DNA of 64,000 bases from assembly GCF_016756595.1 (NCBI RefSeq), contig NZ_AP023257.1:6216001-6280000 (forward strand), read 5' to 3'. The stretch's first letter is position 1, and each line of letters opens with the position of its first letter. The notes under the pieces were generated by a model, which saw only the letters and a list, made by a program, of their open reading frames with translations, did not search any database and was not told where the DNA came from. Positions 32,820-49,495 of this stretch are shown one piece after another. The stretch is from Mesorhizobium sp. L-2-11 (lineage in GTDB: Bacteria > Pseudomonadota > Alphaproteobacteria > Rhizobiales > Rhizobiaceae). Both the position numbers and the translations under genes were made by a program.

Positions 32820-34344
32820 TACTACTGCGTCATAAATTGCGAGCCTGACGCGGACTGTCCATTGCCCTTATGCAGCACGGACATCGTTGCAGACGGTTGG
32901 CCAGGGCCACAGTCAGGCGTCGCCTGAGGGTCGGGATCGAGGTCGGGACGTGCCGCTCTGGTCGGATCGGAGGATCCGCGGGGTCGATAACCGTCGGGAA
33001 GACCAGGTGTTTGGCGGCCCTGGGCGCGAGCTGGAGCCGAGGGAATCGTCTCCCTCAGAGAGACCAGGAAGCCATAGGCGGCGATACAGAGGCTGGCGTG
33101 GTGGTGGAAGCCCCGCCACCCTCGGCCTTCGTAGTGGCTCAGTCCCAGCTCCTGCTTGAGTTCCTGATAGTCTCGCTCGATCCGCCAACGCAGCTTGGCG
33201 GTGTCGACCAGCTGGGTGATCGTAGCGTCGGCCGGCAAGGTGGAGAGCCAATACTTGCTCGGCTCGACCTCGCCTTCAGGCCACTCGATCAGGAGCCACT
33301 CTTCGGCGTGAGCCTCGGGCCGATTGTAGTCCCTGGAGGCCGGCCGCAAGCGCACGGCGGCGAAGCGGGAATTGAGCTCGGTGTTGGTTCCTTCACGCCA
33401 GGCGATCGTGCGCCAGGTCTTGGCGTCGAACTCCTCGGCCAGGGCCTTGGCCGAGATCGGCTTGTGTTTGTCGGTTCGGCCGACCCGAGACGGCGGCCGG
33501 CCTCTTCCGCTCCAAGGCTTGGGCGGCAGCGGGCTCTCGCCTGGGCGCCAGACGCTGAGGGTGGGCTGAACGCCGACAACATAGGTCAGACCGAGCTCGG
33601 ACAGACCGGCGCGGAAACTACCGTCGGCGCCATATCCGGCGTCGGCGAGAACCACGCCGGGCGCGACGCCCTCGGCCTTGGCCGTCCTGATCTGCTCGAG
33701 CGCGATCTGCGGCTTGGTCTGGAACGTGATCGCCGCCGGAATCTTGGCCTTCTTGCGTTGTTCCGGATCCTCCGCCCAGCTGTGCGGGAGATACAATTCG
33801 TAGGCGATCGGAAGCGAGGCTGCGTCATTCGCGATCGATAGGCTAACCGCAATCTGACAGTTGTCCTGCTTGCCCAACTGGCCGCAATACTGGCGCGCTA
33901 CGCCCACCGAGTGCTTGCCCTTCTTGGGAAAGCCCGTGTCGTCGACGATCCACGCCCGGATCGGTCCACGCCGCTCGATCCGTGGAAGAACCCAGTCGCG
34001 AACCCGCGCCAGCAAGGCCGCGTCCGACCACGGCGCCTGTCCCACGAAATGCAGCAGAGACTGATGCTTGGCCGCCACCCGCGACGGCGCCGTGACGGCC
34101 GCCAACGGCTCCACGCTCTTGCGCTCGATCGGCATTAGAAGTCCCAGGCAATAATCCTTCAGCGGCTCAGCTCTGTCGGCGTGGCCGATCACCCCGATCA
34201 AGCATCGATATAGGCGTCGAACGCCGCTTCACTCTCCGCAGTCCAGTTGGTCATGGCGCGCTTCCCTGATCACGAATCAGCACGCTAACAAATCCGCAGC
34301 CAGCGCGAATCCCCCCGCACCCGCGACTTTCTGACTCAGTAAGA
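32820..34344 (-). mobile_element. IS701-family insertion sequence, 1525 bp, CTAG target duplication
   Basis: The ends TACTACTGCGTCATAAA (left) and, on the other strand, TCTTACTGAGTCAGAAA (right) are imperfect inverted repeats. CTAG flanks both sides (32816-32819 and 34345-34348), a 4-base target duplication. One transposase gene fills the element and its stop codon lies within the left repeat. It is inserted in the folD remnant. Confidence 0.82.
32822..34255 (-). pseudogene. IS701-family DDE transposase with an N-terminal frameshift
   Basis: The product matches the IS701 transposase group: IVDDTGFPKKGKHSVGVARQ, GVVLADAGYGADGSFR and LRWRIERDYQELKQELGLSHYEGR hold the catalytic Asp, Asp and Glu. 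The natural ATG at 34255 opens MTNWTAESEAAFDAYIDA and then hits TGA. One missing base near 34202 separates it from the long frame, which continues ALIGVIGHADRAEPL-style from a TTG at 34201. Either the copy is inactive or it uses the TTG start. Confidence 0.72.
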
Positions 34345-35714: not shown

Positions 35715-35801
35715 CTAGTGCAGTTGCCGTTGCCTAGACTGCCTGATGGACAGGCAAAAACTCCCTGTTCATGGACTACTCAGAGTTTGCGGCAAAAACC
35801 C
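35715..35801 (+). pseudogene. Short folD continuation and unassigned sequence
   Basis: From the CTAG at 35715 the sequence reads LVQLPLPRLPDGQ, which continues the folD block HALLV interrupted at 32819 (FolD consensus HGILVQLPLP). After about 40 bases it is unrecognisable up to the left end of IS21-A at 35802. Confidence 0.55.
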
Positions 35802-35854
35802 TGTCAAGCGACACGAGGAATTGACCCCTTGGCGACATCAGGAACTGACCCCCT

Positions 35855-36013
35855 TCACTGGGTTGCTGTTTCGTTGGTTTCGGGCGCCGGTCCCGCCTTC
35901 TGCAGAAGACCGGACCGACGTTTTTCGCGGAGACGGTAGCTGTCGCCGCGGATGGTAATCACCGCCGAATGGTGAAGCAGGCGATCCAGGATCGCGGTGG
36001 CCACCACGGGATC
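35855..36013 (-). pseudogene. istB: istB of IS21-A, 3' part
   Basis: Reads DPVVATAILDRLLHHSAVIT, RGDSYRLREKRRSGLLQK and ends TGA at 35855, the C-terminus of an IstB helper ATPase. It joins exactly to the 5' part at 38641-39284 if the SR1 element is removed: the joint reads GGA GAT CCC (Gly-Asp-Pro). The restored protein would be 266 residues. Confidence 0.88.
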
Positions 36014-36023
36014 CGCGAATGCT

Positions 36024-38129
36024 TCATGATGCACCTTTCCTTGATCGCCTGGTCCGTTGCAGTCGGCGTTGAAGTTGATCGATCTGGTCGCTGGAAAGGC
36101 TGATCTGCCAAGGCTGGCCTTTCGTGCTTTGCCGACCGTTGATAAGTCCCTGGGCGAGGTAATCGAAGATGGTTTGAGCCGTCACGCCGATTGCAGCGGC
36201 AGCGCCCTGTACAGAGTAGGTCCCATCAGGCCAGCGTGTCGGATTGGCTGCGACACCGTTAATCTTGGCTGTCGGGATTCCCCAGCGGTGGCGCAGAAGC
36301 CAGACGTTCTCGTAGGTGAATGGTCTGCCTCGGGCTGAACGAATGCCCTCGTCGTTCAATTTTTTGGCGATTTGCCTGTCCATATCGCCCGCAGCATTGA
36401 GTTGCGTGATCCGCTCACGCACAAGCTCGAGTTCGCCATAGTCTCGATCGTAAGATTGAACTCGGCGTTGGATTTGATGTTGGCTGGTTGCGCCGGTCTG
36501 CCAAAGAATCCTGATGGCGACCTGGCCGCGTATCTTCTTCTGGTCGAGAACGACCTCCTGCACGATGAAGCGCAAGATACGTTTGCGGTCTTCTGGTTGG
36601 GTCGTTTCTGAGTGCCAGATAGCCGGCAAATTCTCGGCGAGTTGCTGAAGCGCCGCGTGATCCTGTGTCTGTAACACCAAGGGCTCTCGGTCTCTCCACC
36701 GACGATATTCCTGCTCGATCTCATCGACCAAGCGCAGCTTGTCTTCCCATGCCTTTTCCAGGGTTCTGGCGACGAGACGATTTTCCGGTTCCACGGTGTC
36801 GTATTGTCGTCGAGCCCGCTCGGCGTCATACCGCGCACGTTCCCGCCGTAGCGTCCATTGTTTCTCGAGGCTCCGCGTTTCCTCCGCAATCTCGTCGAGC
36901 GCAGCGATGGCGATGGCGATTTGGTCAGGTTCCAACGCCTTCAGGAGGGTTTGGGCGACCAACTCATCTACTGCGGGCGCCCGAACCTCCTGACAGAGAG
37001 AGCTGCCGGTCTGGTTGCGGTCCGCCAGGCAGCAGTAAACGGGGCATGCACTGTCGGGGCCGCTGTAGCGCACGGTCATCCGCCGCCCGCATTGGCCGCA
37101 AACCGCCAAGCCCTGCAGCAAAGCAATGCCCTTGCGCGGCGCGCCGCGGTGGCCGGCCTCGTATCGATTGGTGTTGTCGGCGAGGCGGCGCTGATTGACC
37201 ATGAACTCCTCCCAGTCAATATAACCAGGGTGTGCGTCTTTGATGCAAACCTCCCAGTCGTCAATGGCCACCTTCGAGGTTGCGCGGTGCGAACCCGGAC
37301 CTTGGCGGACCGCATTTATTCGGCGCCGGCCGTAGACATATGCGCCGGCATAGGCCGGGTTGTGCAAAATATAATGGACATGGGCGATGGTGGCGTCTCG
37401 CCACACCAGCTCATGGGGTCCCGGCCCGCGGAGCGGCCGCACCGGTATGCGTAGGTCGTGCGTGCGCAGGTAACGCATAACGCGTCGCGCGGTCCCAAGC
37501 TCCCTAAATTTGTCGAAGACCAGACGCAGCCGAGCCTGCACCTCTTCATCAGGATTGAGCACGATCTGGCCGGAGCGGTTGTACGCCAAGCCACCTGGCA
37601 GCGGTATGCGAAGCTCGCCTCGCGCCGCCTTCTGCCGCTCCCCTTGATGCAGGCGGATGCGGATCTGATGCAACTCTGCTTCGCTCATGATCCCCGAGAG
37701 CCCTAACAGCAGCCGGTCGTGATAAGCGCAGGGATCGTAGAGGCGCTCGCCATCAGCGATGATAACGCCGAACAATGAACACAACTCGAGGAGTTGATGC
37801 CAATCTCGGTTATTGCGTGCCAATCGAGATGCATCGAGGCTGACCACCAGACCCGCGTTGCCGAGCCCGATCTCGGCGATGAGCCGTTGGAAGCCGCCGC
37901 GCTCGACTTGGCCGTTTCCCGATTTTCCAAGATCCTCATCGATGACGACGACACGATCCGGCGGCCAGCCCAATCTGACGGCTCGGTCCACCAAGCTGTA
38001 CTGAAGTTCGGTGCTTTCCTGATGGTGGCGCACCTGGTTTATCGAGGATTGGCGTACATAAACGTAAGCGAACTTTGAACGCCGGACGGCCGTGAGCCGC
38101 TCGTCAGAATTACCCGGGACGGCCAACAT
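36024..38129 (-). CDS. Large serine recombinase of SR1, copy 1
   Basis: A 701-residue recombinase. The N-terminal catalytic domain (about 10-160) has the nucleophile Ser in [10 protein letters not shown], then [21 protein letters not shown] recombinase domain and a zinc ribbon (VCGQCGRRM, then a CPVYCC/LCQEV pair near 350-400) follow, then a coiled coil (about 430-500) and a C-terminal HTH-like part ([19 protein letters not shown]). The start ATG overlaps the preceding ORF's stop (TGATG) and the stop lies 10 bases from the attachment core. It presumably integrates and excises SR1. Same sequence as copy 2. Confidence 0.93.
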   Translation of the reverse strand: MLAVPGNSDERLTAVRRSKFAYVYVRQSSINQVRHHQESTELQYSLVDRAVRLGWPPDRVVVIDEDLGKSGNGQVERGGFQRLIAEIGLGNAGLVVSLDASRLARNNRDWHQLLELCSLFGVIIADGERLYDPCAYHDRLLLGLSGIMSEAELHQIRIRLHQGERQKAARGELRIPLPGGLAYNRSGQIVLNPDEEVQARLRLVFDKFRELGTARRVMRYLRTHDLRIPVRPLRGPGPHELVWRDATIAHVHYILHNPAYAGAYVYGRRRINAVRQGPGSHRATSKVAIDDWEVCIKDAHPGYIDWEEFMVNQRRLADNTNRYEAGHRGAPRKGIALLQGLAVCGQCGRRMTVRYSGPDSACPVYCCLADRNQTGSSLCQEVRAPAVDELVAQTLLKALEPDQIAIAIAALDEIAEETRSLEKQWTLRRERARYDAERARRQYDTVEPENRLVARTLEKAWEDKLRLVDEIEQEYRRWRDREPLVLQTQDHAALQQLAENLPAIWHSETTQPEDRKRILRFIVQEVVLDQKKIRGQVAIRILWQTGATSQHQIQRRVQSYDRDYGELELVRERITQLNAAGDMDRQIAKKLNDEGIRSARGRPFTYENVWLLRHRWGIPTAKINGVAANPTRWPDGTYSVQGAAAAIGVTAQTIFDYLAQGLINGRQSTKGQPWQISLSSDQIDQLQRRLQRTRRSRKGAS

Positions 38130-38325
38130 CAAACTGTTCCCTCACCGCCGGCGCGGTCGGCGGCATCCGGCGGATCAGAGTCGCAAGCATCTGCGCGAGT
38201 TGGTGCTGACATACCGGTGGGAGATCGTTCCAAAGATTGGGCGAGTCTCGCTTGATCCTTACCAGTGGAACGTTGGCCTCCGGAAGAGATACCGCCATCC
38301 GAAGTGCTAATGCATGAGCAACCAT
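38110..38325 (-). CDS. Small ORF of SR1, copy 1
   Basis: A 71-residue frame overlapping the recombinase start: [36 protein letters not shown]. The pattern W-LP-----QLA--LA-LIRRM looks like a real short helical protein of the kind found beside such recombinases, and a comparable small frame precedes the SR2 recombinase. It competes with the DUF5372-like frame for this region. Function is unknown. Confidence 0.5.
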   Translation of the reverse strand: MVAHALALRMAVSLPEANVPLVRIKRDSPNLWNDLPPVCQHQLAQMLATLIRRMPPTAPAVREQFDVGRPG

Positions 38326-38602
38326 TGCAATTCGCTATTGAGTTACCAAAGGTGATTCGCACATAATACACTAAAGGAAGCAAAATTCTAACGGATATTA
38401 ACTTTTCAGTCCCGCCGCGATGCTCATCGTCATCATCGATAGCGCGCGACAAATCCGTCACTGACCGGCGGATATTGCGTAACCGCCCATCCGGCAGGCG
38501 GATGACAACAAAGGCAGGTCCGCGCCCCGACCGAAGTGATGCCACCTCAAACCGCTGTCCACAGAGCGCGTGTCGACGGTCAACTACCGTGATGTGAGAC
38601 AC
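38129..38602 (-). CDS. DUF5372-like protein of SR1, copy 1
   Basis: The first 65 residues (VSHITVVDRRHALCGQRFEV, RGPAFVVIRLPDGRLRNIRR) resemble DUF5372, small proteins that accompany this recombinase class. SR2 has a clearer member. The frame stays open to the recombinase start, but the second half crosses an AT-rich stretch (about 38340-38400) that looks more like a promoter, so the real protein may be shorter. Start GTG at 38602 is a guess. Confidence 0.55.
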   Translation of the reverse strand: MSHITVVDRRHALCGQRFEVASLRSGRGPAFVVIRLPDGRLRNIRRSVTDLSRAIDDDDEHRGGTEKLISVRILLPLVYYVRITFGNSIANCNGCSCISTSDGGISSGGQRSTGKDQARLAQSLERSPTGMSAPTRADACDSDPPDAADRAGGEGTV

Positions 38603-38640
38603 CAGCCGATCAATGACAGGGGCATCCTGCTCTGCTTGGG

Positions 38641-39284
38641 TCTCCAAAAACGTTCCCCCATTCGCCCACCGAACGATTGGAGGTAATCAGGATCGATCCC
38701 TTCTCGTATCGGCGCGACACCAGCTGGAAGAACAGGTGAGCGGCATTGGCCTCGAAGGGAAGATAGCCGAGCTCGTCGATGATCAGCAATTTTGGACGCG
38801 ATAAGATCGTCAACTGCTTGTCGAGCGAGCCATCGCCATGGGCTTTTGCCAACATCGCCACCAGCGTGGCCGCAGTGACGAATTGGACATTGTAATTCTG
38901 GCGGATCGCCTCGCGACCAAGGCTCACAGCAAGATGGGTTTTGCCCGTTCCCGGAGGCCCCAGCAACAAGAGCGTGTCGCCATGGGCAATCCAGCGGCAG
39001 GTCGCCAGCTCCCTGATTTGTCCTGGATCCACCGATGGCTGCGCGTCGAAGTCGAAGCCGTCGAGTTCGCGCACGAACGGGAACTGCGCGATCTTGCTCG
39101 ACATGGAGATGCGCCGCTCGTCGCGCCGCGCGATCTCGCGCGACACCAGGAAAGCCAAGGCCTCGCGCAAGGTCATCTTCGAACGGACCGCTTCGTCCAG
39201 CAGCGTGTCGAGCTGGTCGCGGATCGCCGTCAACTTCAGCCGATCCAGGGTTGCGATCAGCACGTCATGATCTAGGGTCGTCAT
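38641..39284 (-). pseudogene. istB: istB of IS21-A, 5' part
   Basis: Starts MTTLDHDVLIATLDRLKLTA at 39284, overlapping the istA stop as TGATG. AAA+ motifs are present: Walker A LLGPPGTGKTHLAV and Walker B LLIIDELGYLPF. The frame is good up to SILITSNRSVGEWGNVFGD, where SR1 interrupts it. Confidence 0.9.
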
Positions 39285-39797
39285 CACCAGCCCCCTCCGA
39301 CCACCGCTTCGTACTCGGCGAGTGGCCGCAGCAAGGTGGCCGGGGCGATCTCGATGCGCTCGGCGCGCACCGGCCCTTCGAAGCCGGCAACGCCGACAAA
39401 ATGCATTCGGTCCACGATGCGCTGTCGTCGCCCTCGGTATAGGGCATGGTCGGCCACTACCTGGCCGGCATGACGGATGATCACGCGGCCTGCCAGCACC
39501 ACGACCTGGACGCTTTCGCCGATCAGGCGCCAAGGGACCGAGTAGCTGTTCGTATCCAAGTCGATTGCGCAGTCGGCCTGGACCTTGCGGACCAGATCCC
39601 GCAGCTGTCCGAACGGCGCGCGTCCCGCCAGCGGGCGAAGCGCACGAGCTTCAGCGGCAAAGCGTTCCACCGGCGCGACACCGGTCGTGCCGTGTTCGCG
39701 CTGGTCGGCGACCTCGCGCGTCCACCGGTCCAAATGCGCCTCGAACGCCGCCCAGCTCTCAAACCGGCGCCCGGCGATCGCGTTCTTCTTAACGTAG
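39284..39797 (-). pseudogene. istA: istA of IS21-A, 3' part
   Basis: Reads YVKKNAIAGRRFESWAAFEA, then LDRWTREVADQREHGTTGVA and a C-terminal domain with SYSVPWRLIGESVQVVV. It continues the 5' part at 48339-49119 in frame across the TAACGTAG duplication once IS21-B is removed: G-Y-V then K-K-N. Stop TGA at 39284. Confidence 0.88.
39790..39797. repeat. Target duplication TAACGTAG, left of IS21-B
   Basis: The same 8 bases occur at 48339-48346, directly outside both ends of IS21-B. This fixes the insertion point inside istA of IS21-A. Confidence 0.9.
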
Positions 39798-39925
39798 TGC
39801 GGATTCCGAGATCATCGCGCGCACCGTTCCGATTTGATCGCGCGCGGCATTCCGAAGTGATGGCGCGCAGCATTCCGAGAATTACCCGCGCGGGATTCCG
39901 ACACGATCGCGCGCAGTTCGGAGTT
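39798..39925 (+). repeat. Multiple terminal repeats at the left end of IS21-B
   Basis: About five related units of roughly 23 bases follow one another, each with ATTCCGA or TTCCGA followed by a GCGCGC-containing block (for example TTCCGATTTGATCGCGCGCG and ATTCCGACACGATCGCGCGC). The right end carries inverted versions (GCGCGCGATCAGATCGGAAC and two more). IS21 ends typically contain several transposase-binding repeats. Confidence 0.8.
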
Positions 39926-39979
39926 AGGAGAACCTGATCCTTGGGGCATGTTCCGGTCGGGCAACGACCGGAGGAATGG

Positions 39980-40751
39980 ATGCCGACGAGGAGGGTTAGG
40001 ATGCGCCACGTGCGCGAGATTTTACGTCTGAGCTTGGAAGCGGGGCTATCGACGCGGATGGCTGGCGAGCGTGCCGGGGTCGGGCCGACGACGGTCCGGG
40101 ATATGCTGAAGCGGTTTGCACGCTCCGGGCTGAACTGGCCGGTCCCGGCCGAGATGAGCGATGCCGACCTGGAAGCTTGCCTATACGGCTTACCTGGGAT
40201 GAAGCCCGGCCGGCGCAAACAGCCGGAACCGGACTGGTCGGCGGTAGCACGTGAGCTGAAGCGCAAGCATGTGACGCTGCAGGTTCTGTGGGAAGAGTAT
40301 GTCGCCGCCCACCCGGATGGCTATCGCTACAGCCGTTGGTGTGACCTGTTCCGGCGCTGGGAAGGCCGCCTGCCTCTGACGATGCGGCAGAGCCACGCGG
40401 GCGGTGAGAAGATGTTTGTCGATTACGCCGGCGACACGGTGCCGGTTGTAGTCGACCGCCGGACCGGTGAGGTGCGCGATGCCCATCTGTTTGTGGCGGT
40501 GCTCGGCGGATCGAGCTTGTCATTTGCCTGCGCGACGTGGACCGAGCAGTTCGCGGACTGGATCGAGGCGCACAATGGCGCCTTCGCCTTCTTCGGCGGC
40601 GTGGCCCATCTTCTGGTCCCGGACAACGCGAAGGTCGCGGTGATTAAGGCGTGTCACTTCGATCCGATGGTCAACCGCAGCTACACCGACATGGCGCGTC
40701 ATTACGGCACGGCGGTGCTCCCGGCAAGACCGAGGAAGCCACGCGATAAGG
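39980..40751 (+). pseudogene. istA: istA of IS21-B, 5' part
   Basis: Starts MPTRRVRMRHVREILRLSLE after GGAGGAATGG. It has the N-terminal HTH (STRMAGERAGVGPTTVRDML) and the rve core (KMFVDYAGDTVPVVV with the first Asp, HLLVPDNAKVAV with the second). It is in frame to ARPRKPRDK, where SR2 begins. The 3' part resumes at 44059 with KAKVEAC, which brings the third catalytic residue, Glu. Confidence 0.9.
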
Positions 40752-40759
40752 AGAAGGCT

Positions 40760-42838
40760 TCATATTGCACCTTGTTCGGTTGATTGAGCGGTAGTGGATT
40801 GAAGGCGAGCGGGATAAGGATGTTTTCCAGCGTTTCCCTTAATTATGGTGCGACCTGCGGGAAGTTCCCAGAGGCCGCGATTATGGTTATCACTAAAGCA
40901 TTTGGTGATGAGGCCTTGGCGGCCCCACGCATGGACAGTCGTCAGAGATATATTGAACCGGATTGCAACTTGCTTTGTGGTGAGCATTCCTTTGTCGAGA
41001 AGGCGCTGACGACGACTTGATAATCTATAGGCATTGCGGATGTGGGCGATCTTCTTGAGATTATAGGGTGAGCCTTCCCACGTTCGAAGGCCGCGCTCGT
41101 TGAAGATTTCGGCGATCTGGCGATCGCAGTGAAGATCGAGCAGGCGGTCGACCTCGGCGACCAGATCAGGCTTAAATTTGCGGATCTGAGCGATCGGCAG
41201 CGGCCGATCCAGGGTCAAGGAGCGCGTCGCTCCGCCAGACAAGCTAACATGGACCGTGATCTTGTCCGCCTTGATTAGGGTCACGTCGGCGATGAGCAAG
41301 CGCAGGATGCGCTTGCGTTCACGCACGTCGACGCGGGGGTCGCTCCAGATCCGAGGGAACTGCTCGGCGAGATCAAGGATGCGTTGGCGCATCTCGGTGT
41401 CGAGGGCGGCGGCCTCCTCGGGCGCCCGCCGCTCGTAGTCCTCGACGACATCGGTGTGCAGCCGCAGCTTCTCGTTCCATTCAGCCTCGAGGGCGTCGGC
41501 GACGAGACGGTTGTCGGGATCGACCTTCATATAGCGTCGCTGGGCGAGTTCGGCGTCGTAGCGCGTTCGTTCAATATGTTGGCGACGCAAGTTGTCGGTC
41601 TCGGCGGTGCGGGCTTCCAGCTCGCCCTGTACCGCGAGGCTGACCTCCAAGGTCATCGGGGTCATCAGCTTGACTAACAGCGCGCTGACGGCCGGGTCGA
41701 CCACCTTGCCCGGCACCGACTGGCAGACCTTGCCGCCCCGGCGGGTGGCGGTTTCCTTGCAAACGTAGGTCGGGACTGACTGCCCATGTTCCTGACTATA
41801 CTGGACGCTCATGCGTTCGCCGCATAGGCCGCAAAGGACGCGACCCTGAAGCAAGCCTGGTCCCTCCCGGACCGGGCCGGCTTTGCGGTGTATGGTATAG
41901 GCTTGGGCGTTGTCGGTGAGCTTTTCCTGGTTCGCCTTGAAGCGCGCCCAGTCGATGTAGCCCGGATGCATGTCGGGCATGACGACTTGCCAGTCAGCCA
42001 TTTCCACCTTGATCTGGGACACGCCGCCTCCGGGCCGAGGGCGGCCGTGTGATCTTCCATAGACAAAGGCGCCTGCATATCTCGGGTTATGAAGCACCTG
42101 CAAAATGCGAGCGTGACGCGGCGGCGCCCACAACACCTCGCCTTTTTGCGTGCCTTTGCGCAGCCGTCGTGGGAACAGGATGCCTTCGTCCAGGAAGTAC
42201 TTGACCGTCCGGGTCGCGCTGCCGAGGCGCTCGAAGGTGGCGAACACCAGGTGAAGCGCGGCCTGCACCTCGGCATCGGGGTCGAGATCGAGGGCGCCAT
42301 CAGGCCGGTAAACCAGGCCGACAGGCGCGCCGATCCGAAGCTCGCCGCGGCGGGCCTTGTTGATCTGTCCACCGCGCATACGGGCTTTGAGGAAGTGCAG
42401 CTCGGCTTCGCTCATAGTTCCTTTGAGCCCGAGTAACAGCCGATCGTTAAAGCCGACCGGGTCGTAGATGCCGTCTTCGTCGAGGATCAGGGTGCGGGTC
42501 TGGCCGCAGAGTTCGAGAAGCCGATGCCAATCAGCCGAATTGCGCGCTAATCGCGAGACCTCTAGCCCCATGACGATGCCGGCCTTGGTTAGCGCGACTT
42601 CGCTGACCAACTCCTGGAAGCCGTCGCGAGAGACAGCGCTGGATCCGGACTTGCCCAGATCGCAGTCGATGACGTGGATACGATCAACGGGCCAACCGGC
42701 GGCGATGGCGCGATCACGCAACGCGTACTGTCGCTGGGTGCTCTCGCCATTCTCGGCGACCTGTCGCAGTGTCGATTGGCGGATGTAGAGGTAGGCATCG
42801 CGCCGGAGGTGATCGGTGGTGATTTTGAGATCAGGCAT
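40760..42838 (-). CDS. Large serine recombinase of SR2
   Basis: A 692-residue recombinase with the same architecture as that of SR1 but clearly different sequence. The catalytic domain has AYLYIRQSTLRQVAENGEST and LEVSRLARNSADWHRLLELC; then come the recombinase domain, a zinc ribbon (LCGLCGERM), a coiled coil near 430-490 and a C-terminal HTH-like part (LTTKQVAIRFNISLTTVHAW). The start overlaps the upstream small frame's stop and the stop lies about 10 bases inside the left junction. Presumably specific for the istA target. Confidence 0.93.
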   Translation of the reverse strand: MPDLKITTDHLRRDAYLYIRQSTLRQVAENGESTQRQYALRDRAIAAGWPVDRIHVIDCDLGKSGSSAVSRDGFQELVSEVALTKAGIVMGLEVSRLARNSADWHRLLELCGQTRTLILDEDGIYDPVGFNDRLLLGLKGTMSEAELHFLKARMRGGQINKARRGELRIGAPVGLVYRPDGALDLDPDAEVQAALHLVFATFERLGSATRTVKYFLDEGILFPRRLRKGTQKGEVLWAPPRHARILQVLHNPRYAGAFVYGRSHGRPRPGGGVSQIKVEMADWQVVMPDMHPGYIDWARFKANQEKLTDNAQAYTIHRKAGPVREGPGLLQGRVLCGLCGERMSVQYSQEHGQSVPTYVCKETATRRGGKVCQSVPGKVVDPAVSALLVKLMTPMTLEVSLAVQGELEARTAETDNLRRQHIERTRYDAELAQRRYMKVDPDNRLVADALEAEWNEKLRLHTDVVEDYERRAPEEAAALDTEMRQRILDLAEQFPRIWSDPRVDVRERKRILRLLIADVTLIKADKITVHVSLSGGATRSLTLDRPLPIAQIRKFKPDLVAEVDRLLDLHCDRQIAEIFNERGLRTWEGSPYNLKKIAHIRNAYRLSSRRQRLLDKGMLTTKQVAIRFNISLTTVHAWGRQGLITKCFSDNHNRGLWELPAGRTIIKGNAGKHPYPARLQSTTAQSTEQGAI

Positions 42839-43096
42839 GTGCTGGCTCCGCGGTTAGCGTGACAACAAGACTGGCTAAAATGACGATAAGCTCATTGGTG
42901 GCGGTCGCGCCCGGCATAGGCGGTCGATACACCGGGCGTGTCAGCGCCGAAGCGGGGGGCGTGGACATGGCCTTGATCCAAGCGGCCATACCTTGACGCC
43001 GAAGGGTGCCCAGCCCTGCGGCGGTAATTACTGGGGCGCCAAGCACGACCGCCCGTAACTGTTCGTAGGCGTCGACAAGATTGGCTGCGCCGGCGG
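42831..43096 (-). CDS. Small frame between the HTH gene and the recombinase of SR2
   Basis: The frame reads NLVDAYEQLRAVVLGAP, RRQGMAAWIKAM and TATNELIVILASLVVTLT, ending in TGA that overlaps the recombinase start. The pattern looks conserved and protein-like. No start codon is evident: the frame is open upstream into the HTH gene across a run of eight A residues (T at 43115-43122), so it may be made by frameshifting from that gene. Function is unknown. Confidence 0.45.
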
Positions 43097-43577
43097 TTAA
43101 AGAGAGTCGGGTCGTTTTTTTTGGCGCGCCATCGCCCGTTCGAGACTTCGTCGGTGCACGGTGATGCCAAAGCGCGCTGTGATCTCGGCGATGCATTGCG
43201 GCAAGGTCAGATCTGGCCTTGCCGCCTTGAGTTCGTCGACAAAGCCAACGATCTCTGCCGAGAGCTTGTGCCCATCCTTTGGTCCCCGCTGCTGGGGGAT
43301 CAAGCCTGCCAGACCGTGATCGGCCAAGGTGCTTTGTGCCTTGTAGAAGGTTGGCCGCGAGACCCCGAAGACGCGGGCCACATTGCTGATGGGCACGCCA
43401 TCGGCTTGATGGCGACGCACCATCTCGTAGCGCACCTGGACAAGGTCCTTGGCGTCGAAGGAAGGGATTGCTGATGAACAGGGTGTCGCTGATGGCTTCG
43501 GGGTGGGGGTTGAGCGTGCCGTCCCGAGCCAGGGCCTCGCCCTTTGGATCGTCTAGCACCGGCTTTGGTTTGGCCAT
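43097..43577 (-). pseudogene. HTH protein of SR2, with a one-base frameshift
   Basis: Starts MAKPKPVLDDPKGEALARDG and, after a frame change near 43457-43466 (CCCTTCCTTCG, one base too many), continues FDAKDLVQVRYEMVRRHQAD, GVSRPTFYKAQSTLADHGLA and ITVHRRSLERAMARQKK. This resembles HTH proteins that accompany serine recombinases in rhizobia. The shift may be a mutation or recoding; I call it disrupted. Possible role: control of the element or a recombination accessory. Confidence 0.65.
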
Positions 43578-43744
43578 GTCCAACCTCAAAACTGATTCGT
43601 AAATAAAAATACGCCTCACAAGCTAAGCTGTCAAATGCCGCAACCTGATATGAATCCCCAAAATGCCTGATACTACAGGCAACATTGAGGTCTCTTATCG
43701 CTCGATGCGGCGTATTTTGCATTACAATAGCGGTGTAATTGTTT

Positions 43745-44032
43745 TTACGCATCGCCCACCTCTATTGACGAGGAGACCTGCTCCAAGATGCCGAGCAGCC
43801 GCTGCAGGTCGACTATCCGGAAAGCGGCACGCCCAGCCGCGATCCGCCGGAATGGATCGGGCGGCGCCATGTCCGTCAAAGCGACGGCAATGGTTGGCAA
43901 AGTCCCGTTTGCCGCCCGATAGATTACCCGGTCCTCGCCCCAATGCGGGCTACGGCTGACCACCTCGAAGATCTGACCAAGGAGTGGGTGGAAGGGATGT
44001 GTGATGCGCACCGCAAGACCGGTCGTACCCAC
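43745..44032 (-). CDS. DUF5372-family protein of SR2
   Basis: A 95-residue protein with the DUF5372 pattern ITHPFHPLLGQIFEVVSRS, HWGEDRVIYRAANG and LTDMAPPDPFRRIAAGRAAF. It starts at a GTG (44032) only about 27 bases from the istA junction. The SR1 element has a related ORF in the same first position, so the gene seems to be part of the element's core. Function is unknown. Confidence 0.75.
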   Translation of the reverse strand: MGTTGLAVRITHPFHPLLGQIFEVVSRSPHWGEDRVIYRAANGTLPTIAVALTDMAPPDPFRRIAAGRAAFRIVDLQRLLGILEQVSSSIEVGDA

Positions 44033-44058
44033 ACGAGCTGCAGTTGACGGCTTGATCC

Positions 44059-44838
44059 AAGGCGAAAGTCGAGGCCTGTGTCGGCATTGTCGAACGCTGG
44101 GTCCTGGGCCGCTTGCGCAACCGGATCTTCTACAGCCTGGCCGAGGTGAACGCGGCGGTCGCCGAATGCATCACCGATCTCAACGACACACGGGTGCTTC
44201 GCCAGTTCAGCAAAACGCGGCGCCAGCTGTTCGAGGAGATCGACGCGCCGAACCTCAAGCCGCTGCCGGCGGAACGGTGGGTCCACGCTGAGTGGAAGCG
44301 TTGCCGAGTCGGACTCGATTATCACATCGCGATTGAGCACCACCATTACTCGGTGCCCTGGCGCTTCGCCCGCCGCGAGGTCGAGGCTCGAATTACCACA
44401 CGCACCGTCGAAATCTTCCTCGACGGCGAACGCATCGCCGCGCACATGCGTGGCAGCGGCAACGGGCGGCATACGACGATCCCCGAACATATGCCCTCGA
44501 GCCATCGGCGCTACCGTGAATGGACGCCCGTGAAGATCCGGGAGGAAGCGGCGCGGATCGGGCCGATGCTGTCGTTGCTGGTTGAAAAGATCATTGAGGA
44601 TCGGCCGCATCCCGAGCAGGGTTACCGTTCATGCCTCGGCATCATCGGGCTAGCGAAGCGCTTCGGCGCCGAACGCCTGGAAGCGGCCGCGCGGCGCGCG
44701 CTGGAGATCCAGGCGCGCAACTATCCCTCGGTCAAATCGATCCTCGAGAAGGGGCTCGACAAGGTTCCGGCGCGCGAAGCCCCGGACCACACGCCGATCT
44801 TCCACACCAACATCCGGGGCTCCGGATATTACAACTGA
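44059..44838 (+). pseudogene. istA: istA of IS21-B, 3' part
   Basis: Reads KAKVEACVGIVERWVLGRLR, then NRIFYSLAEVNAAVAECITD, LDYHIAIEHHHYSVPWRFAR and ends at 44838. In frame with the 5' part when SR2 is removed; the restored IstA would be 515 residues. istB begins 10 bases later. Confidence 0.9.
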
Positions 44839-44848
44839 AAGGACTACA

Positions 44849-45483
44849 ATGCTCAAACATCCGACACTCGAACTGCTGGGGCAACTCGGCCTGGCCGGCA
44901 TGGCCCATGCGTTCATCGAATTGGAAAGCAACAGCGATGCCGACAACCTCAGCCACGCCGAATGGCTTGCCCTGCTGCTCGATCACGAGGCGACATACCG
45001 TAATGACCGGCGCCTTGCGCTCCGCCTTCGTCATGCGCGGCTACGCCACCATGCCGTGCCCGAGGATGTCGATTACCGTGCTGCGCGCGGTCTCGATCGC
45101 CGGCTGTTCGACAAGCTGCTCAAGGGCGACTGGATCGCCGCCCATGAGAGCTTGGCCATCGTCGGGCCGGCCGGGGTCGGGAAGAGCTGGTTGGCCTGCG
45201 CCATCGGTCACAAGGCCTGCCGTGACAACCGTTCGGTCCTCTACACCCGGCTGCCGCGGCTCATCGATGACCTGTCCCTGGCCAAGGGCGACGGCCGCAT
45301 CGCCGCGCGCATGAAAAGCCTGGCCAGGGTCGATCTCCTTATCCTCGACGATTGGGGCCTCGAACCGCTCGACGGCAATGCCCGTCACCACCTGCTCGAA
45401 ATCCTCGAAGACCGGTACGGGCGGCGCTCAACGCTGGTGACCAGTCAACTCCCGGTGGCCCGCTGGTTCGATCTGATCGGAGA
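44849..45483 (+). pseudogene. istB: istB of IS21-B, 5' part
   Basis: An IstB ATPase N-terminal part: MLKHPTLELLGQLGLAGMAH, Walker A AIVGPAGVGKSWLACAI, Walker B LLILDDWGLEPL. The frame is intact to PVARWFDLIGD, where SR1 copy 2 interrupts it at the same Gly-Asp-Pro codons as in IS21-A. The 3' part is at 48111-48218. Confidence 0.92.
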
Positions 45484-45521
45484 CCCAAGCAGAGCAGGAT
45501 GCCCCTGTCATTGATCGGCTG

Positions 45522-45995
45522 GTGTCTCACATCACGGTAGTTGACCGTCGACACGCGCTCTGTGGACAGCGGTTTGAGGTGGCATCACTTCGGTCGGGGC
45601 GCGGACCTGCCTTTGTTGTCATCCGCCTGCCGGATGGGCGGTTACGCAATATCCGCCGGTCAGTGACGGATTTGTCGCGCGCTATCGATGATGACGATGA
45701 GCATCGCGGCGGGACTGAAAAGTTAATATCCGTTAGAATTTTGCTTCCTTTAGTGTATTATGTGCGAATCACCTTTGGTAACTCAATAGCGAATTGCAAT
45801 GGTTGCTCATGCATTAGCACTTCGGATGGCGGTATCTCTTCCGGAGGCCAACGTTCCACTGGTAAGGATCAAGCGAGACTCGCCCAATCTTTGGAACGAT
45901 CTCCCACCGGTATGTCAGCACCAACTCGCGCAGATGCTTGCGACTCTGATCCGCCGGATGCCGCCGACCGCGCCGGCGGTGAGGGAACAGTTTGA
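45522..45995 (+). CDS. DUF5372-like protein of SR1, copy 2
   Basis: Same as the copy at 38129-38602: a DUF5372-like N-terminal part (VVDRRHALCGQRFEV), then an open frame through an AT-rich stretch to a stop that overlaps the recombinase ATG (TGATG). Only the first half looks conserved. Confidence 0.55.
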   Translation: MSHITVVDRRHALCGQRFEVASLRSGRGPAFVVIRLPDGRLRNIRRSVTDLSRAIDDDDEHRGGTEKLISVRILLPLVYYVRITFGNSIANCNGCSCISTSDGGISSGGQRSTGKDQARLAQSLERSPTGMSAPTRADACDSDPPDAADRAGGEGTV

Positions 45996-46014
45996 TGTTG
46001 GCCGTCCCGGGTAA
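45799..46014 (+). CDS. Small ORF of SR1, copy 2
   Basis: A 71-residue frame identical to 38110-38325 (RIKRDSPNLWNDLPPVCQHQ, LAQMLATLIRRMPP). It starts just after the AT-rich stretch and overlaps the recombinase start by 20 bases. Confidence 0.5.
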   Translation: MVAHALALRMAVSLPEANVPLVRIKRDSPNLWNDLPPVCQHQLAQMLATLIRRMPPTAPAVREQFDVGRPG

Positions 46015-48100
46015 TTCTGACGAGCGGCTCACGGCCGTCCGGCGTTCAAAGTTCGCTTACGTTTATGTACGCCAATCCTCGATAAACCAGGTGCGCCACC
46101 ATCAGGAAAGCACCGAACTTCAGTACAGCTTGGTGGACCGAGCCGTCAGATTGGGCTGGCCGCCGGATCGTGTCGTCGTCATCGATGAGGATCTTGGAAA
46201 ATCGGGAAACGGCCAAGTCGAGCGCGGCGGCTTCCAACGGCTCATCGCCGAGATCGGGCTCGGCAACGCGGGTCTGGTGGTCAGCCTCGATGCATCTCGA
46301 TTGGCACGCAATAACCGAGATTGGCATCAACTCCTCGAGTTGTGTTCATTGTTCGGCGTTATCATCGCTGATGGCGAGCGCCTCTACGATCCCTGCGCTT
46401 ATCACGACCGGCTGCTGTTAGGGCTCTCGGGGATCATGAGCGAAGCAGAGTTGCATCAGATCCGCATCCGCCTGCATCAAGGGGAGCGGCAGAAGGCGGC
46501 GCGAGGCGAGCTTCGCATACCGCTGCCAGGTGGCTTGGCGTACAACCGCTCCGGCCAGATCGTGCTCAATCCTGATGAAGAGGTGCAGGCTCGGCTGCGT
46601 CTGGTCTTCGACAAATTTAGGGAGCTTGGGACCGCGCGACGCGTTATGCGTTACCTGCGCACGCACGACCTACGCATACCGGTGCGGCCGCTCCGCGGGC
46701 CGGGACCCCATGAGCTGGTGTGGCGAGACGCCACCATCGCCCATGTCCATTATATTTTGCACAACCCGGCCTATGCCGGCGCATATGTCTACGGCCGGCG
46801 CCGAATAAATGCGGTCCGCCAAGGTCCGGGTTCGCACCGCGCAACCTCGAAGGTGGCCATTGACGACTGGGAGGTTTGCATCAAAGACGCACACCCTGGT
46901 TATATTGACTGGGAGGAGTTCATGGTCAATCAGCGCCGCCTCGCCGACAACACCAATCGATACGAGGCCGGCCACCGCGGCGCGCCGCGCAAGGGCATTG
47001 CTTTGCTGCAGGGCTTGGCGGTTTGCGGCCAATGCGGGCGGCGGATGACCGTGCGCTACAGCGGCCCCGACAGTGCATGCCCCGTTTACTGCTGCCTGGC
47101 GGACCGCAACCAGACCGGCAGCTCTCTCTGTCAGGAGGTTCGGGCGCCCGCAGTAGATGAGTTGGTCGCCCAAACCCTCCTGAAGGCGTTGGAACCTGAC
47201 CAAATCGCCATCGCCATCGCTGCGCTCGACGAGATTGCGGAGGAAACGCGGAGCCTCGAGAAACAATGGACGCTACGGCGGGAACGTGCGCGGTATGACG
47301 CCGAGCGGGCTCGACGACAATACGACACCGTGGAACCGGAAAATCGTCTCGTCGCCAGAACCCTGGAAAAGGCATGGGAAGACAAGCTGCGCTTGGTCGA
47401 TGAGATCGAGCAGGAATATCGTCGGTGGAGAGACCGAGAGCCCTTGGTGTTACAGACACAGGATCACGCGGCGCTTCAGCAACTCGCCGAGAATTTGCCG
47501 GCTATCTGGCACTCAGAAACGACCCAACCAGAAGACCGCAAACGTATCTTGCGCTTCATCGTGCAGGAGGTCGTTCTCGACCAGAAGAAGATACGCGGCC
47601 AGGTCGCCATCAGGATTCTTTGGCAGACCGGCGCAACCAGCCAACATCAAATCCAACGCCGAGTTCAATCTTACGATCGAGACTATGGCGAACTCGAGCT
47701 TGTGCGTGAGCGGATCACGCAACTCAATGCTGCGGGCGATATGGACAGGCAAATCGCCAAAAAATTGAACGACGAGGGCATTCGTTCAGCCCGAGGCAGA
47801 CCATTCACCTACGAGAACGTCTGGCTTCTGCGCCACCGCTGGGGAATCCCGACAGCCAAGATTAACGGTGTCGCAGCCAATCCGACACGCTGGCCTGATG
47901 GGACCTACTCTGTACAGGGCGCTGCCGCTGCAATCGGCGTGACGGCTCAAACCATCTTCGATTACCTCGCCCAGGGACTTATCAACGGTCGGCAAAGCAC
48001 GAAAGGCCAGCCTTGGCAGATCAGCCTTTCCAGCGACCAGATCGATCAACTTCAACGCCGACTGCAACGGACCAGGCGATCAAGGAAAGGTGCATCATGA
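45995..48100 (+). CDS. Large serine recombinase of SR1, copy 2
   Basis: A 701-residue recombinase with the same protein sequence as that at 36024-38129. The catalytic-domain Ser, zinc ribbon, coiled coil and C-terminal HTH are all intact, so the element should be able to move. The ATG at 45995 is preferred over a TTG at 45992. Confidence 0.93.
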
Positions 48101-48110
48101 AGCATTCGCG

Positions 48111-48218
48111 GATCCCACCTACGCCGATGCCATCCTCGACCGCCTCGTTCACAACGCTCACCGGCTCGAACTCAACGGCGAATCCATGCGCAGATCCATC
48201 ATCTCCGCTGCCGCTTGA
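48111..48218 (+). pseudogene. istB: istB of IS21-B, 3' part
   Basis: Reads [30 protein letters not shown] and a short Ala-rich end before TGA at 48216-48218. The first codon is completed by the GA core. Joined to 44849-45483 it gives a 246-residue IstB. Confidence 0.9.
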
Positions 48219-48338
48219 CCGAACCGCAAATGCAGTGACATCTTCCCCGACGATCAGGTGCTCCACCTGCGCGCGATCAGATCGGAACGCTGCGCGGCAT
48301 CAGATCGGAATACATGCGCGCCATCGTCGGAATCCGCA

Positions 48339-48346
48339 TAACGTAG
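48339..48346. repeat. Target duplication TAACGTAG, right of IS21-B
   Basis: Partner of 39790-39797. It lies within istA of IS21-A and encodes part of Gly-Tyr-Val on the minus strand. Confidence 0.9.
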
Positions 48347-49119
48347 CCGACTCCGCGTTCGTCCTTCCCTTTCGTGCGCGCTCGATAGGGAGCACAGGCC
48401 CGCGGCTTGAAGCCCCAGTACCGGGCGAAGGCATGCAGCCGCGCGTTAAACCTCACCTCGCGCGTCACCGCGTCATGGTGCTCGACAAGAGCCTTCGCAT
48501 TATCGATCAGGACTTCCGCCGGAACGCCCCCGAACCGCAGGAATGCGCCCTCCAGCCCTTCGAACCAGTCGGCCTGGCGCTGCCTCTGCGAGGCCCGGAT
48601 ATGCATCCGGCGCGAATAGCCAAGCGTCCCGACAAACACATGGATCCGCACCCGCTCGCCGCCGATCCAAACACGGGTATCGCCGAAGTCGATCTGCATC
48701 TGATGACCGGGCGCCGTCTCGAAGCGGACTGTCGCCCGCTTCTGCGCCTTTAGCTCCCGGCGCCAATGCTGCACCCCACGCTCCACCGAACGCAGGCTGA
48801 TAACGATCCCGTGTTCGTCCGCCAACTCTTGGCGAATAACGTCCGCGTTGCCGTCGTGACGGAAAAATCGCTCCCGCAACCAATCATCAAGCCCGTCGAG
48901 CGCCGACACGCGCGGGCGACCCTGATAAGCGATGACACCGCCTTCACGAAGGTAGCGGCGAGCCGTATTGCGCGCGCAACCGAATTCCTTTGCGATCCGT
49001 TTTGCGCCCCAGCCGCATTTATGCAGGCGCACCATCGACATGACTTCCTCTGCCTGCAGCATCCCCTCTCCCTGCATCGATCTGGACGGTGCAGGAGTCA
49101 CAGAAATCTCAATCGTCAT
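48339..49119 (-). pseudogene. istA: istA of IS21-A, 5' part
   Basis: Starts MTIEISVTPAPSRSMQGEGM; HTH region GWGAKRIAKEFGCARNTARR; rve core MQIDFGDTRVWIGGERVRIH and EVLIDNAKALVEHH (first and second Asp), then RARTKGKDERGVGYV (third acidic residue). The IS21-B target lies directly after this motif. The 3' part is at 39284-39797. Confidence 0.9.
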
Positions 49120-49195
49120 CTAGCTTCTTTCCTCTCAAAAGAGAGGGATCAGTTCTTCGTGTCGTCAGGGGGTCAATTGTGCATGTCGCCTGACA

Positions 49196-49495
49196 CTGTC
49201 GTCTTGCTGATCTTCAGCCGTTCCGACACCTCACGCACCGAAAGACCCTGCTCATGGGTCAGGCGCAAGATCGCTTGGATGTCCCTCACGCTCGTTCGTC
49301 TCGCTTGCTTCCGTCTCGGCATGGCCCCTCTCAACATCATCGTGAGAGGCCAAACTGCCAGAACGGCGCAACCAAGAACCGACCGCTAAATCCGCTCCCG
49401 AAAACTGTCCGGGATTTAGCGGAATCGCTGTCCGCGAATTACTGAAATCACTGTCCGGGATTTAGCGAAAAGGGTGTCCGGGAATTACCGAAACA
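49196..49495 (-). mobile_element. IS21-C fragment: terminal repeats and istA start
   Basis: From the right end (about 49495) repeats of the type TCCCGGACA and TCGCGGACA with GTAATT/CTAAAT blocks occur four times. Then at 49322 an istA starts MPRRKQARRTSVRDIQAILR with LSVREVSERLKISKTTV and is cut at 49196 by IS21-A. The rest of IS21-C is absent from the window. Its right neighbour is an istB fragment, so IS21-C itself seems inserted in another IS21. Confidence 0.78.

Follow-up and report, generated by a model that had tools for sequence, protein, structure and literature searches.

We analysed a 64,000-nt stretch of Mesorhizobium sp. L-2-11 (assembly GCF_016756595.1, contig NZ_AP023257.1, positions 6,216,001-6,280,000), hereafter the window, to whose positions all coordinates refer. 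It carries two copies of a serine-recombinase element, SR1, each 2629 bp long and each lying within istB, the helper ATPase gene of IS21 insertion sequences (IS). Copy A (36012..38640, minus strand) separates the 5′ part (38641..39284, minus strand; PF01695, start from the joined frame) from the 3′ part (35855..36011, minus strand; end by arithmetic from the 266-residue frame) of the istB gene of IS21-A. Copy B (45484..48112, plus strand) likewise separates the 5′ part (44849..45483, plus strand; PF01695) from the 3′ part (48113..48218, plus strand; end by arithmetic from the 246-residue frame) of the istB gene of IS21-B. Direct comparison of the two copies gave 2629 identical positions out of 2629; the exact run common to both was 2638 bp, including a few host bases, beyond which the flanks diverge. 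Both copies have the junctions GGAGA/CCCAAGC at one end and CGCGGA/TCCC at the other (slashes mark junctions here and below), with GA present at both ends, and the position corresponds to the Gly-Asp codons of istB. Joining the flanks of A and of B yielded GGAGATCCC in each case and restored IstB reading frames that run open from ATG over 266 and 246 residues; in the interrupted genes, the istB frame runs into SR1 for a few residues and then meets a stop. These comparisons confirm a first-pass annotation of this DNA, which had described identical units at the same codons of two different istB genes and had predicted that their removal restores intact IstB.

SR1 encodes a large serine recombinase and one small open reading frame (ORF). 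The recombinase ORF of 702 codons lies at 45992..48100 (plus strand) in copy B and at 36024..38132 (minus strand; ORF list, domains scanned on the identical copy B) in copy A. Its product matched PF00239 (Resolvase), PF07508 (Recombinase) and PF13408 (Zn-ribbon), all above cut-offs, with the Resolvase domain (residues 22-173) N-terminal to the others, and a PDB sequence search returned one match, a resolvase domain. The small ORF upstream (45522..45995, plus strand, in copy B; the same ORF at 38129-38602, minus strand, from the ORF list, in copy A) is weakly DUF5372-like (E=0.0092), and its stop codon and an ATG of the recombinase frame overlap. No conjugation or mobilisation gene was found; the other ORFs of at least 80 aa overlap the recombinase, and these overlapping ORFs lay outside the domain scan. 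SR1 is a minimal integrative element and not one of the integrative and conjugative or mobilisable type.

Searching the genome for the istB family gave 13 matches, which represent six istB genes, a short fragment (L104) and a weak match (L103). Five of the six genes are loaded with SR1: those of A and B, that of a second IS21-B on contig C3, and two further ones, hosts C and D. An uninterrupted istB of IS21-A is present in the same genome (L092). It matched both flanks of copy A with 0 mismatches and reads CGTTTTTGGAGATCCCGTGG at the empty site, where GGAGATCCC is found as in the joined flanks and as the first-pass annotation had anticipated for intact istB genes. The empty site is thus real, and comparison with copy A gave GA as the bases common to both ends, a net insertion of 2629 bp and no loss of host bases. 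The 702-residue recombinase recurs at 100% identity in two more copies, one in the second IS21-B (L004) and one in host C (L001), a third istB gene interrupted at the same codon. The right flank of the latter continues CGCTG and encodes Gly-Asp-Ala, so the conserved part is Gly-Asp and the proline is dispensable. Host D, a fourth istB gene, is interrupted at the same place by a decayed copy, which is 91-95% identical, carries an internal deletion and shows AA instead of GA as its left dinucleotide. No two of the hosts A, B, C and D are the same istB gene.

The two window copies form part of a nest. IS21-A spans 35801..49196 (minus strand), an extent that represents the match to an uninterrupted copy (L113) and not the IS ends themselves. 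IS21-B (39798..48338, plus strand; 8541 bp, ends TGCGGATTCCG and CGGAATCCGCA) is inserted in its istA gene, and comparison of the flanks revealed an 8-bp target duplication, TAACGTAG, at 39790..39797 on the left and 48339-48346 on the right. IS21-A thus holds IS21-B in istA and SR1 in istB, and IS21-B in turn holds a second type of element, SR2, in istA and SR1 in istB. The loaded IS21-B recurs on contig C3, 100% identical over 8541 bp; there its flanks differ and GCGCG forms a 5-bp repeat. The same loaded IS at two places with other flanks indicates that the passengers travel with their host, supporting the earlier suggestion that SR1 rides on IS21. As both genes of IS21-B are interrupted, it was most likely moved with IstA and IstB supplied in trans, and the broken istB frames suggest that the IstB activity of the hosts would be lost. 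Beside the nest, a long ORF at 32822-34201 has, by eye, the look of a DDE transposase.

The first-pass annotation had set beforehand, as a test of target specificity, that most homologues should lie in istB. One scan of genome contigs yielded 76 homologous loci, whose ends were tested with IstB references; the loci are not independent, ten of them being contigs of one Rhizobium altiplani assembly. At 58 of the 71 loci with a testable end, istB was found within 20 residues of the Gly-Asp codon (left ends 48/60, right ends 42/52). Where both ends were testable (n=41), istB lay on both sides in 32 loci, on one side in three and on neither in six. Among the 13 loci that the script scored negative, L019 adjoins istB by eye, with the match broken, L065 adjoins an rve ORF, L048 an IS5-like frame (by eye) and L035 another copy of the element; the remaining nine are truncated or without host assignment. 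At L035 two SR1-type elements stand in tandem, the second beginning exactly at the end of the first. The usual nesting is inverted at another locus (L067:5150-6229), where two parts of an SR1-type recombinase (residues 2-373 and 597-702) enclose an IstB frame.

Both orientations occur within istB, with 19 of the 32 two-sided loci antisense, 11 sense and two mixed. The right-end dinucleotide was GA in 19/20 sense copies and TC in 21/22 antisense copies. At left ends, the script output, which misassigned L030, L044 and probably L061, gave TC in 27/31 antisense and GA in 9/16 sense copies; by eye, the sense exceptions have GA followed by ACCC (L030, L031, L033) or AA (L021, L025, L040), and L057 is mixed. 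Because the point within istB is fixed, the link between orientation and core is partly forced. More informative is the pair L034 and L038, whose enzymes are 92.3% identical and which have opposite orientations and opposite cores. In serine integrases the core dinucleotide sets the direction of integration, and the pair fits this rule. The upstream halves of the hosts, taken where the script located the core (31 distinct halves), have the majority sequence TGG-N6-GTNTTCGGNGA, with the TGG letters at 96-100%; the GA itself is no evidence here because it was part of the search. The attachment site of the first-pass annotation, (I/F)GDP with a GA core, can be kept as to Gly-Asp, not as to the proline, and its core reads GA or TC depending on orientation. 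As read from the sequences, SR1 has inserted with no host bases lost and with GA at either end, at a site known in its empty state, and insertion recurs in many different istB genes and in both orientations with GA or TC as core.

Elements related to SR1 occupy other genes in the same genome. SR2 (40752..44062, minus strand) is 3311 bp long and lies antisense in istA of IS21-B; its removal corresponds to a net insertion of 3311 bp and joins an istA frame of 529 codons. Domain scans identified a 692-aa recombinase ORF (40760..42838), an ORF with helix-turn-helix matches (43100..43435; PF13518, PF13384) and a DUF5372 ORF (43748..44032; PF17342, E=1.1e-32), all on the minus strand. The site in istA is PRKPRDK/AKVEA, and AAGG is common to the ends, so that the exact core is ambiguous. 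A third type, SR3, is present in five copies with two different flanks, antisense in genes for group II intron reverse transcriptases (RT). The joined frames comprise 510 codons at DIQQF/FDRVS and 505 codons at DIKGC/FDNIN, and both halves of the first host match the group II intron RT model. One SR3 copy (L106) is situated near genes that by eye are nodulation-like (ABC transporter, glycosyltransferase). The DUF5372 scores were 112.3 bits for SR2, 20.0 for SR3 and 16.4 for SR1, with a cut-off of 25.

Further relatives were found within or beside IS66, IS3-like, IS5, IS110 and DDE_3 transposase genes, a tyrosine recombinase gene and the P-loop of IstB. Hosts were sought without a prior choice of gene, as proteins that are continuous in the query but matched in two halves on either side of a recombinase; only hosts represented by a relative in the fetched loci can be found in this way. 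In a first genome sample, 16/297 genomes matched and gave 21 loci outside this genome. A host gene was split on both flanks in 12/21 (istA, IS66 tnpB and tnpC, IS110, tyrosine recombinase, istB, and a DDE_3 gene by Pfam, which we take from its motif to be IS630-like), and the other nine had a mobile-element gene on at least one flank. A second sample (7/289 genomes, eight loci outside this genome) yielded two hosts split on both flanks (tnpC, istB P-loop) and one locus beside IS66 (L123), with four of the eight loci without host assignment. We also inspected 22 plasmid regions, picked for taxonomic spread out of 447 and 360 matching records and originating from alpha-, beta- and gammaproteobacteria, cyanobacteria and Streptomyces. 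The host was split on both flanks in 17/22, each time a mobile-element gene, including L155, which rests on weak RT matches without Pfam confirmation. In two regions (L154, L160), which belong to an RPLGIP site, pieces of an RT gene occur on either side and another gene intervenes; a DDE_5 gene borders L156 on one side, L162 is flanked by two istB 5′ parts and L168 is without host assignment. Among the relatives as a whole, the left flank of L146 matches IS66 TnpC and L143 lies sense in its host. The IS66 tnpB gene is apparently hit at two places by two recombinase clades (L128, L129 and L130; L132 and L135), at about positions 57 and 91 of 101 in the Pfam model. The earlier notion of small integrative elements that parasitise IS21 holds for SR1 but has to be widened, since the larger family uses several targets besides istB.

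We related sites to enzymes on a quick maximum-likelihood tree of 78 recombinases (L077 was left out as too short), on which eight long branches were flagged. Changes were counted over 75 site-labelled rows, excluding L119, L120 and L068; several labels come from one flank or were assigned by eye. The 19 site classes need 19 changes on the tree (minimum 18; shuffled mean 43.9), and a count as low was obtained in 0/200 shuffles. The class of site used tracks the recombinase phylogeny, with a separate site retained by each clade. Orientation changed at least four times over the 27 rows of the istB Gly-Asp class. The junction motifs include GPP/GTGKSHLA in the IstB P-loop, DK/AKVE in IstA, VVER in IS5, LNPI/EQ in DDE_3, NNxAER in IS66, DIxGxF/D in RT and QVL/LGH in the tyrosine recombinase; among them are what we take to be the DDE glutamate, RT motif A, Walker A and box II of tyrosine recombinases. 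Conservation was ranked in an 11-residue window at the junction, using sets of 3 to 24 sequences (for IstA, close relatives only, from a large protein search). The junction fell in the top 38.1% for IstB Gly-Asp, 1.5% for the IstB P-loop, 6.1% for IstA, 44.0% for TnpC, 1.8% for the first RT site and 21.7% for RT RPLGIP. With ranks from 1.5% to 44.0%, the proposition that the sites always coincide with the best-conserved region of the host protein was not upheld, and junctions at familiar motifs represent a tendency only.

No description of SR1 or of an istB target was found in the open-access literature searched, with most subscription papers, preprints and ISfinder outside the search; this agrees with the first-pass annotation, which knew of no element with this target. 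Mobile elements that target other mobile elements are known. IS4321 and IS5075 insert in the ends of Tn21-type transposons, and in this they resemble SR1; unlike SR1, they have IS110-family transposases and target terminal repeats. A recombinase beside a DUF5372 or Y4bD-type gene also characterizes the Y4bA/Y4bD-type pairs of rhizobial plasmids. These pairs are known here by annotation alone: the fetched plasmid regions carry the annotations 'Y4bD/Y4pK family protein' and 'DUF5372 family protein', and no relevant paper on y4bA, DUF5372, Y4bD, Y4pK or DUF6788 was found in the open-access literature searched. The integrases of helper-embedded PICIs (HE-PICIs), a further case, are of the tyrosine type.

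HE-PICI integrases form one clade with 14 sites in prophage late genes and with subclades following the sites (PMC10111431). This repeated entry of one integrase clade into the genes of another mobile element is shared with the SR1 family; HE-PICIs, however, are phage satellites, whereas SR1 has a serine recombinase, two ORFs and istB as host. Among streptococcal integrative and conjugative elements with serine integrase triplets, some reside in traG of another such element (PMC4701971). They, too, enter a gene of another mobile element, but they are large and conjugative, use three integrases and also target mutT and hsdM. The rhizobial group II intron RmInt1 homes into the transposase region of ISRm2011-2 (PMC4238363), as SR1 does into a gene of its host IS; RmInt1, however, is an RNA element able to splice out, while SR1 is DNA with no sign of splicing. 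Large serine integrases of phages and of integrative and conjugative elements have the same Resolvase, Recombinase and Zn-ribbon domains as SR1 and a short core, and a survey of such enzymes likewise found clades that keep one conserved target gene, besides some multi-targeting ones (PMC10083194); SR1 differs in carrying one small ORF besides the recombinase. The survey stresses genes for magnesium chelatase, prolyl isomerase and competence as targets, and the word istB does not occur in its main text. In phage WO, a magnesium chelatase gene and a tandem-repeat locus serve as recombinase targets (PMC9203015). In IS607-type serine transposons, DNA-binding precedes the catalytic domain and target specificity is described as low, whereas in SR1 the Resolvase domain comes first and the site preference is strong. 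The SR1 recombinase is not a member of the cassette chromosome recombinases (Ccr; best score 38.9 bits, NCBIfam cut-offs 700-900). A tblastn search of 50,697 phage records at 1e-30 gave no match and a pattern scan of viral contigs no relative, and we rejected an origin as a phage or phage satellite.

Our interpretation, to which we assign a probability of roughly 0.85, is that SR1 is a minimal integrative element specific for the Gly-Asp codons of istB with a GA core and that it belongs to a family living on the genes of other mobile elements, with one site per clade. The large serine recombinase would join attP of a circular form to attB inside istB, attB being the Gly-Asp codons of the IS21 helper ATPase and GA the two-base crossover core. 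Excision would release the circle with a predicted attP of ...GCATTCGCGGA-CCCAAGCAG... (likewise given as ...AAGCATTCGCGGA-CCCAAGCAGAGC...), for which the DUF5372-like ORF may provide the directionality factor. Insertion would abolish IstB activity, and loaded IS21 copies may then be moved by IstA and IstB acting in trans. Within the family, every recombinase clade would keep to a single site, lying in a gene that belongs to another mobile element, and such sites would be common, dispensable to the cell and themselves mobile.

Several observations weigh against this interpretation. The exact pattern of the predicted attP is absent from the assembly. The DUF5372 match of the small ORF of SR1 falls under the cut-off (16.4 versus 25 bits). 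Counting L019 as istB by eye, 12/71 testable loci of the istB clade are without a demonstrated istB host, and sense copies show less regularity at their left ends (GA in 9/16 by script, AA in three by eye). At the two mixed loci, L046 and L057, istB runs in opposite senses on the two sides, L162 is flanked by two istB 5′ parts, and one relative of the second genome sample (L118) adjoins a gene for a TPR protein. The arrangement at L046, L057 and L162 resembles what recombination between copies lying in inverted istB genes would produce.

Taken as a whole, the family is probably widespread and preys on mobile elements, its targets spanning transposase, helper ATPase, tyrosine recombinase and group II intron RT. 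Its clades are likely locked on one conserved, often catalytic codon stretch, with the core dinucleotide setting orientation and with new clades arising by a switch of target gene. We are similarly inclined to regard it as an equivalent, among DNA recombinases, of inteins and homing introns, with the difference that its host gene is left broken.

Of the alternatives, an element that acts chiefly as a brake on IS21 to the benefit of the cell keeps the most weight, although we consider it unlikely. Five of the six istB genes of this genome carry SR1, and RmInt1 in ISRm2011-2 has been reported to restrict how far its host IS spreads (PMC4238363). However, the loaded IS21-B appears to have moved. 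Still less probable is a programmed excision switch, similar to the fdxN element, that restores IstB when the host IS or the cell needs it. Excision would indeed restore istB exactly, and the best NCBIfam match of the recombinase is the fdxN excision recombinase XisF; its score of 77.8 bits, however, does not reach the cut-off of 375 bits, so that SR1 is not a member, and the many hosts, both orientations and several target genes suggest a mobile element rather than a fixed switch.

A loosely specific recombinase that accumulates in IS-rich regions is about as improbable as the switch, if not slightly more so. The elements do cluster in regions rich in mobile elements, some relatives lie outside istB and multi-target serine recombinases are known (PMC10083194), but the same codon was found in 58/71 testable loci and each clade has its own site. 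In that survey, DUF4368 is given for 63% of the members of the multi-targeting (TndX-like) clade; it was not among the Pfam matches of the SR1 recombinase at 1e-3, a negative limited by that percentage. Finally, the origin of copies A and B from one duplicated segment already holding istB and the element, without target specificity, which the first-pass annotation had named as the refuting case, applies to the identical 8541-bp blocks of loaded IS21-B and hence to L003 and L004, but for A and B it is refuted by flanks that cannot be aligned beyond 2638 bp and by a third and a fourth istB host, and we give it almost no credence.

The larger finding is a family of very small serine-recombinase elements housed in the genes of other mobile elements. 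It suggests that insertion sequences and group II introns have a stratum of parasites of their own, visible in genome records only as a 'recombinase family protein' beside a broken transposase, and it would account for many interrupted transposase genes. Related integrases whose target sites can be read from the sequence, and among which cores have been swapped in nature, form a natural series for studying how serine integrases change specificity, and the family is a possible source of new site-specific integrases for laboratory use. It also makes testable whether such elements check transposons or ride them.

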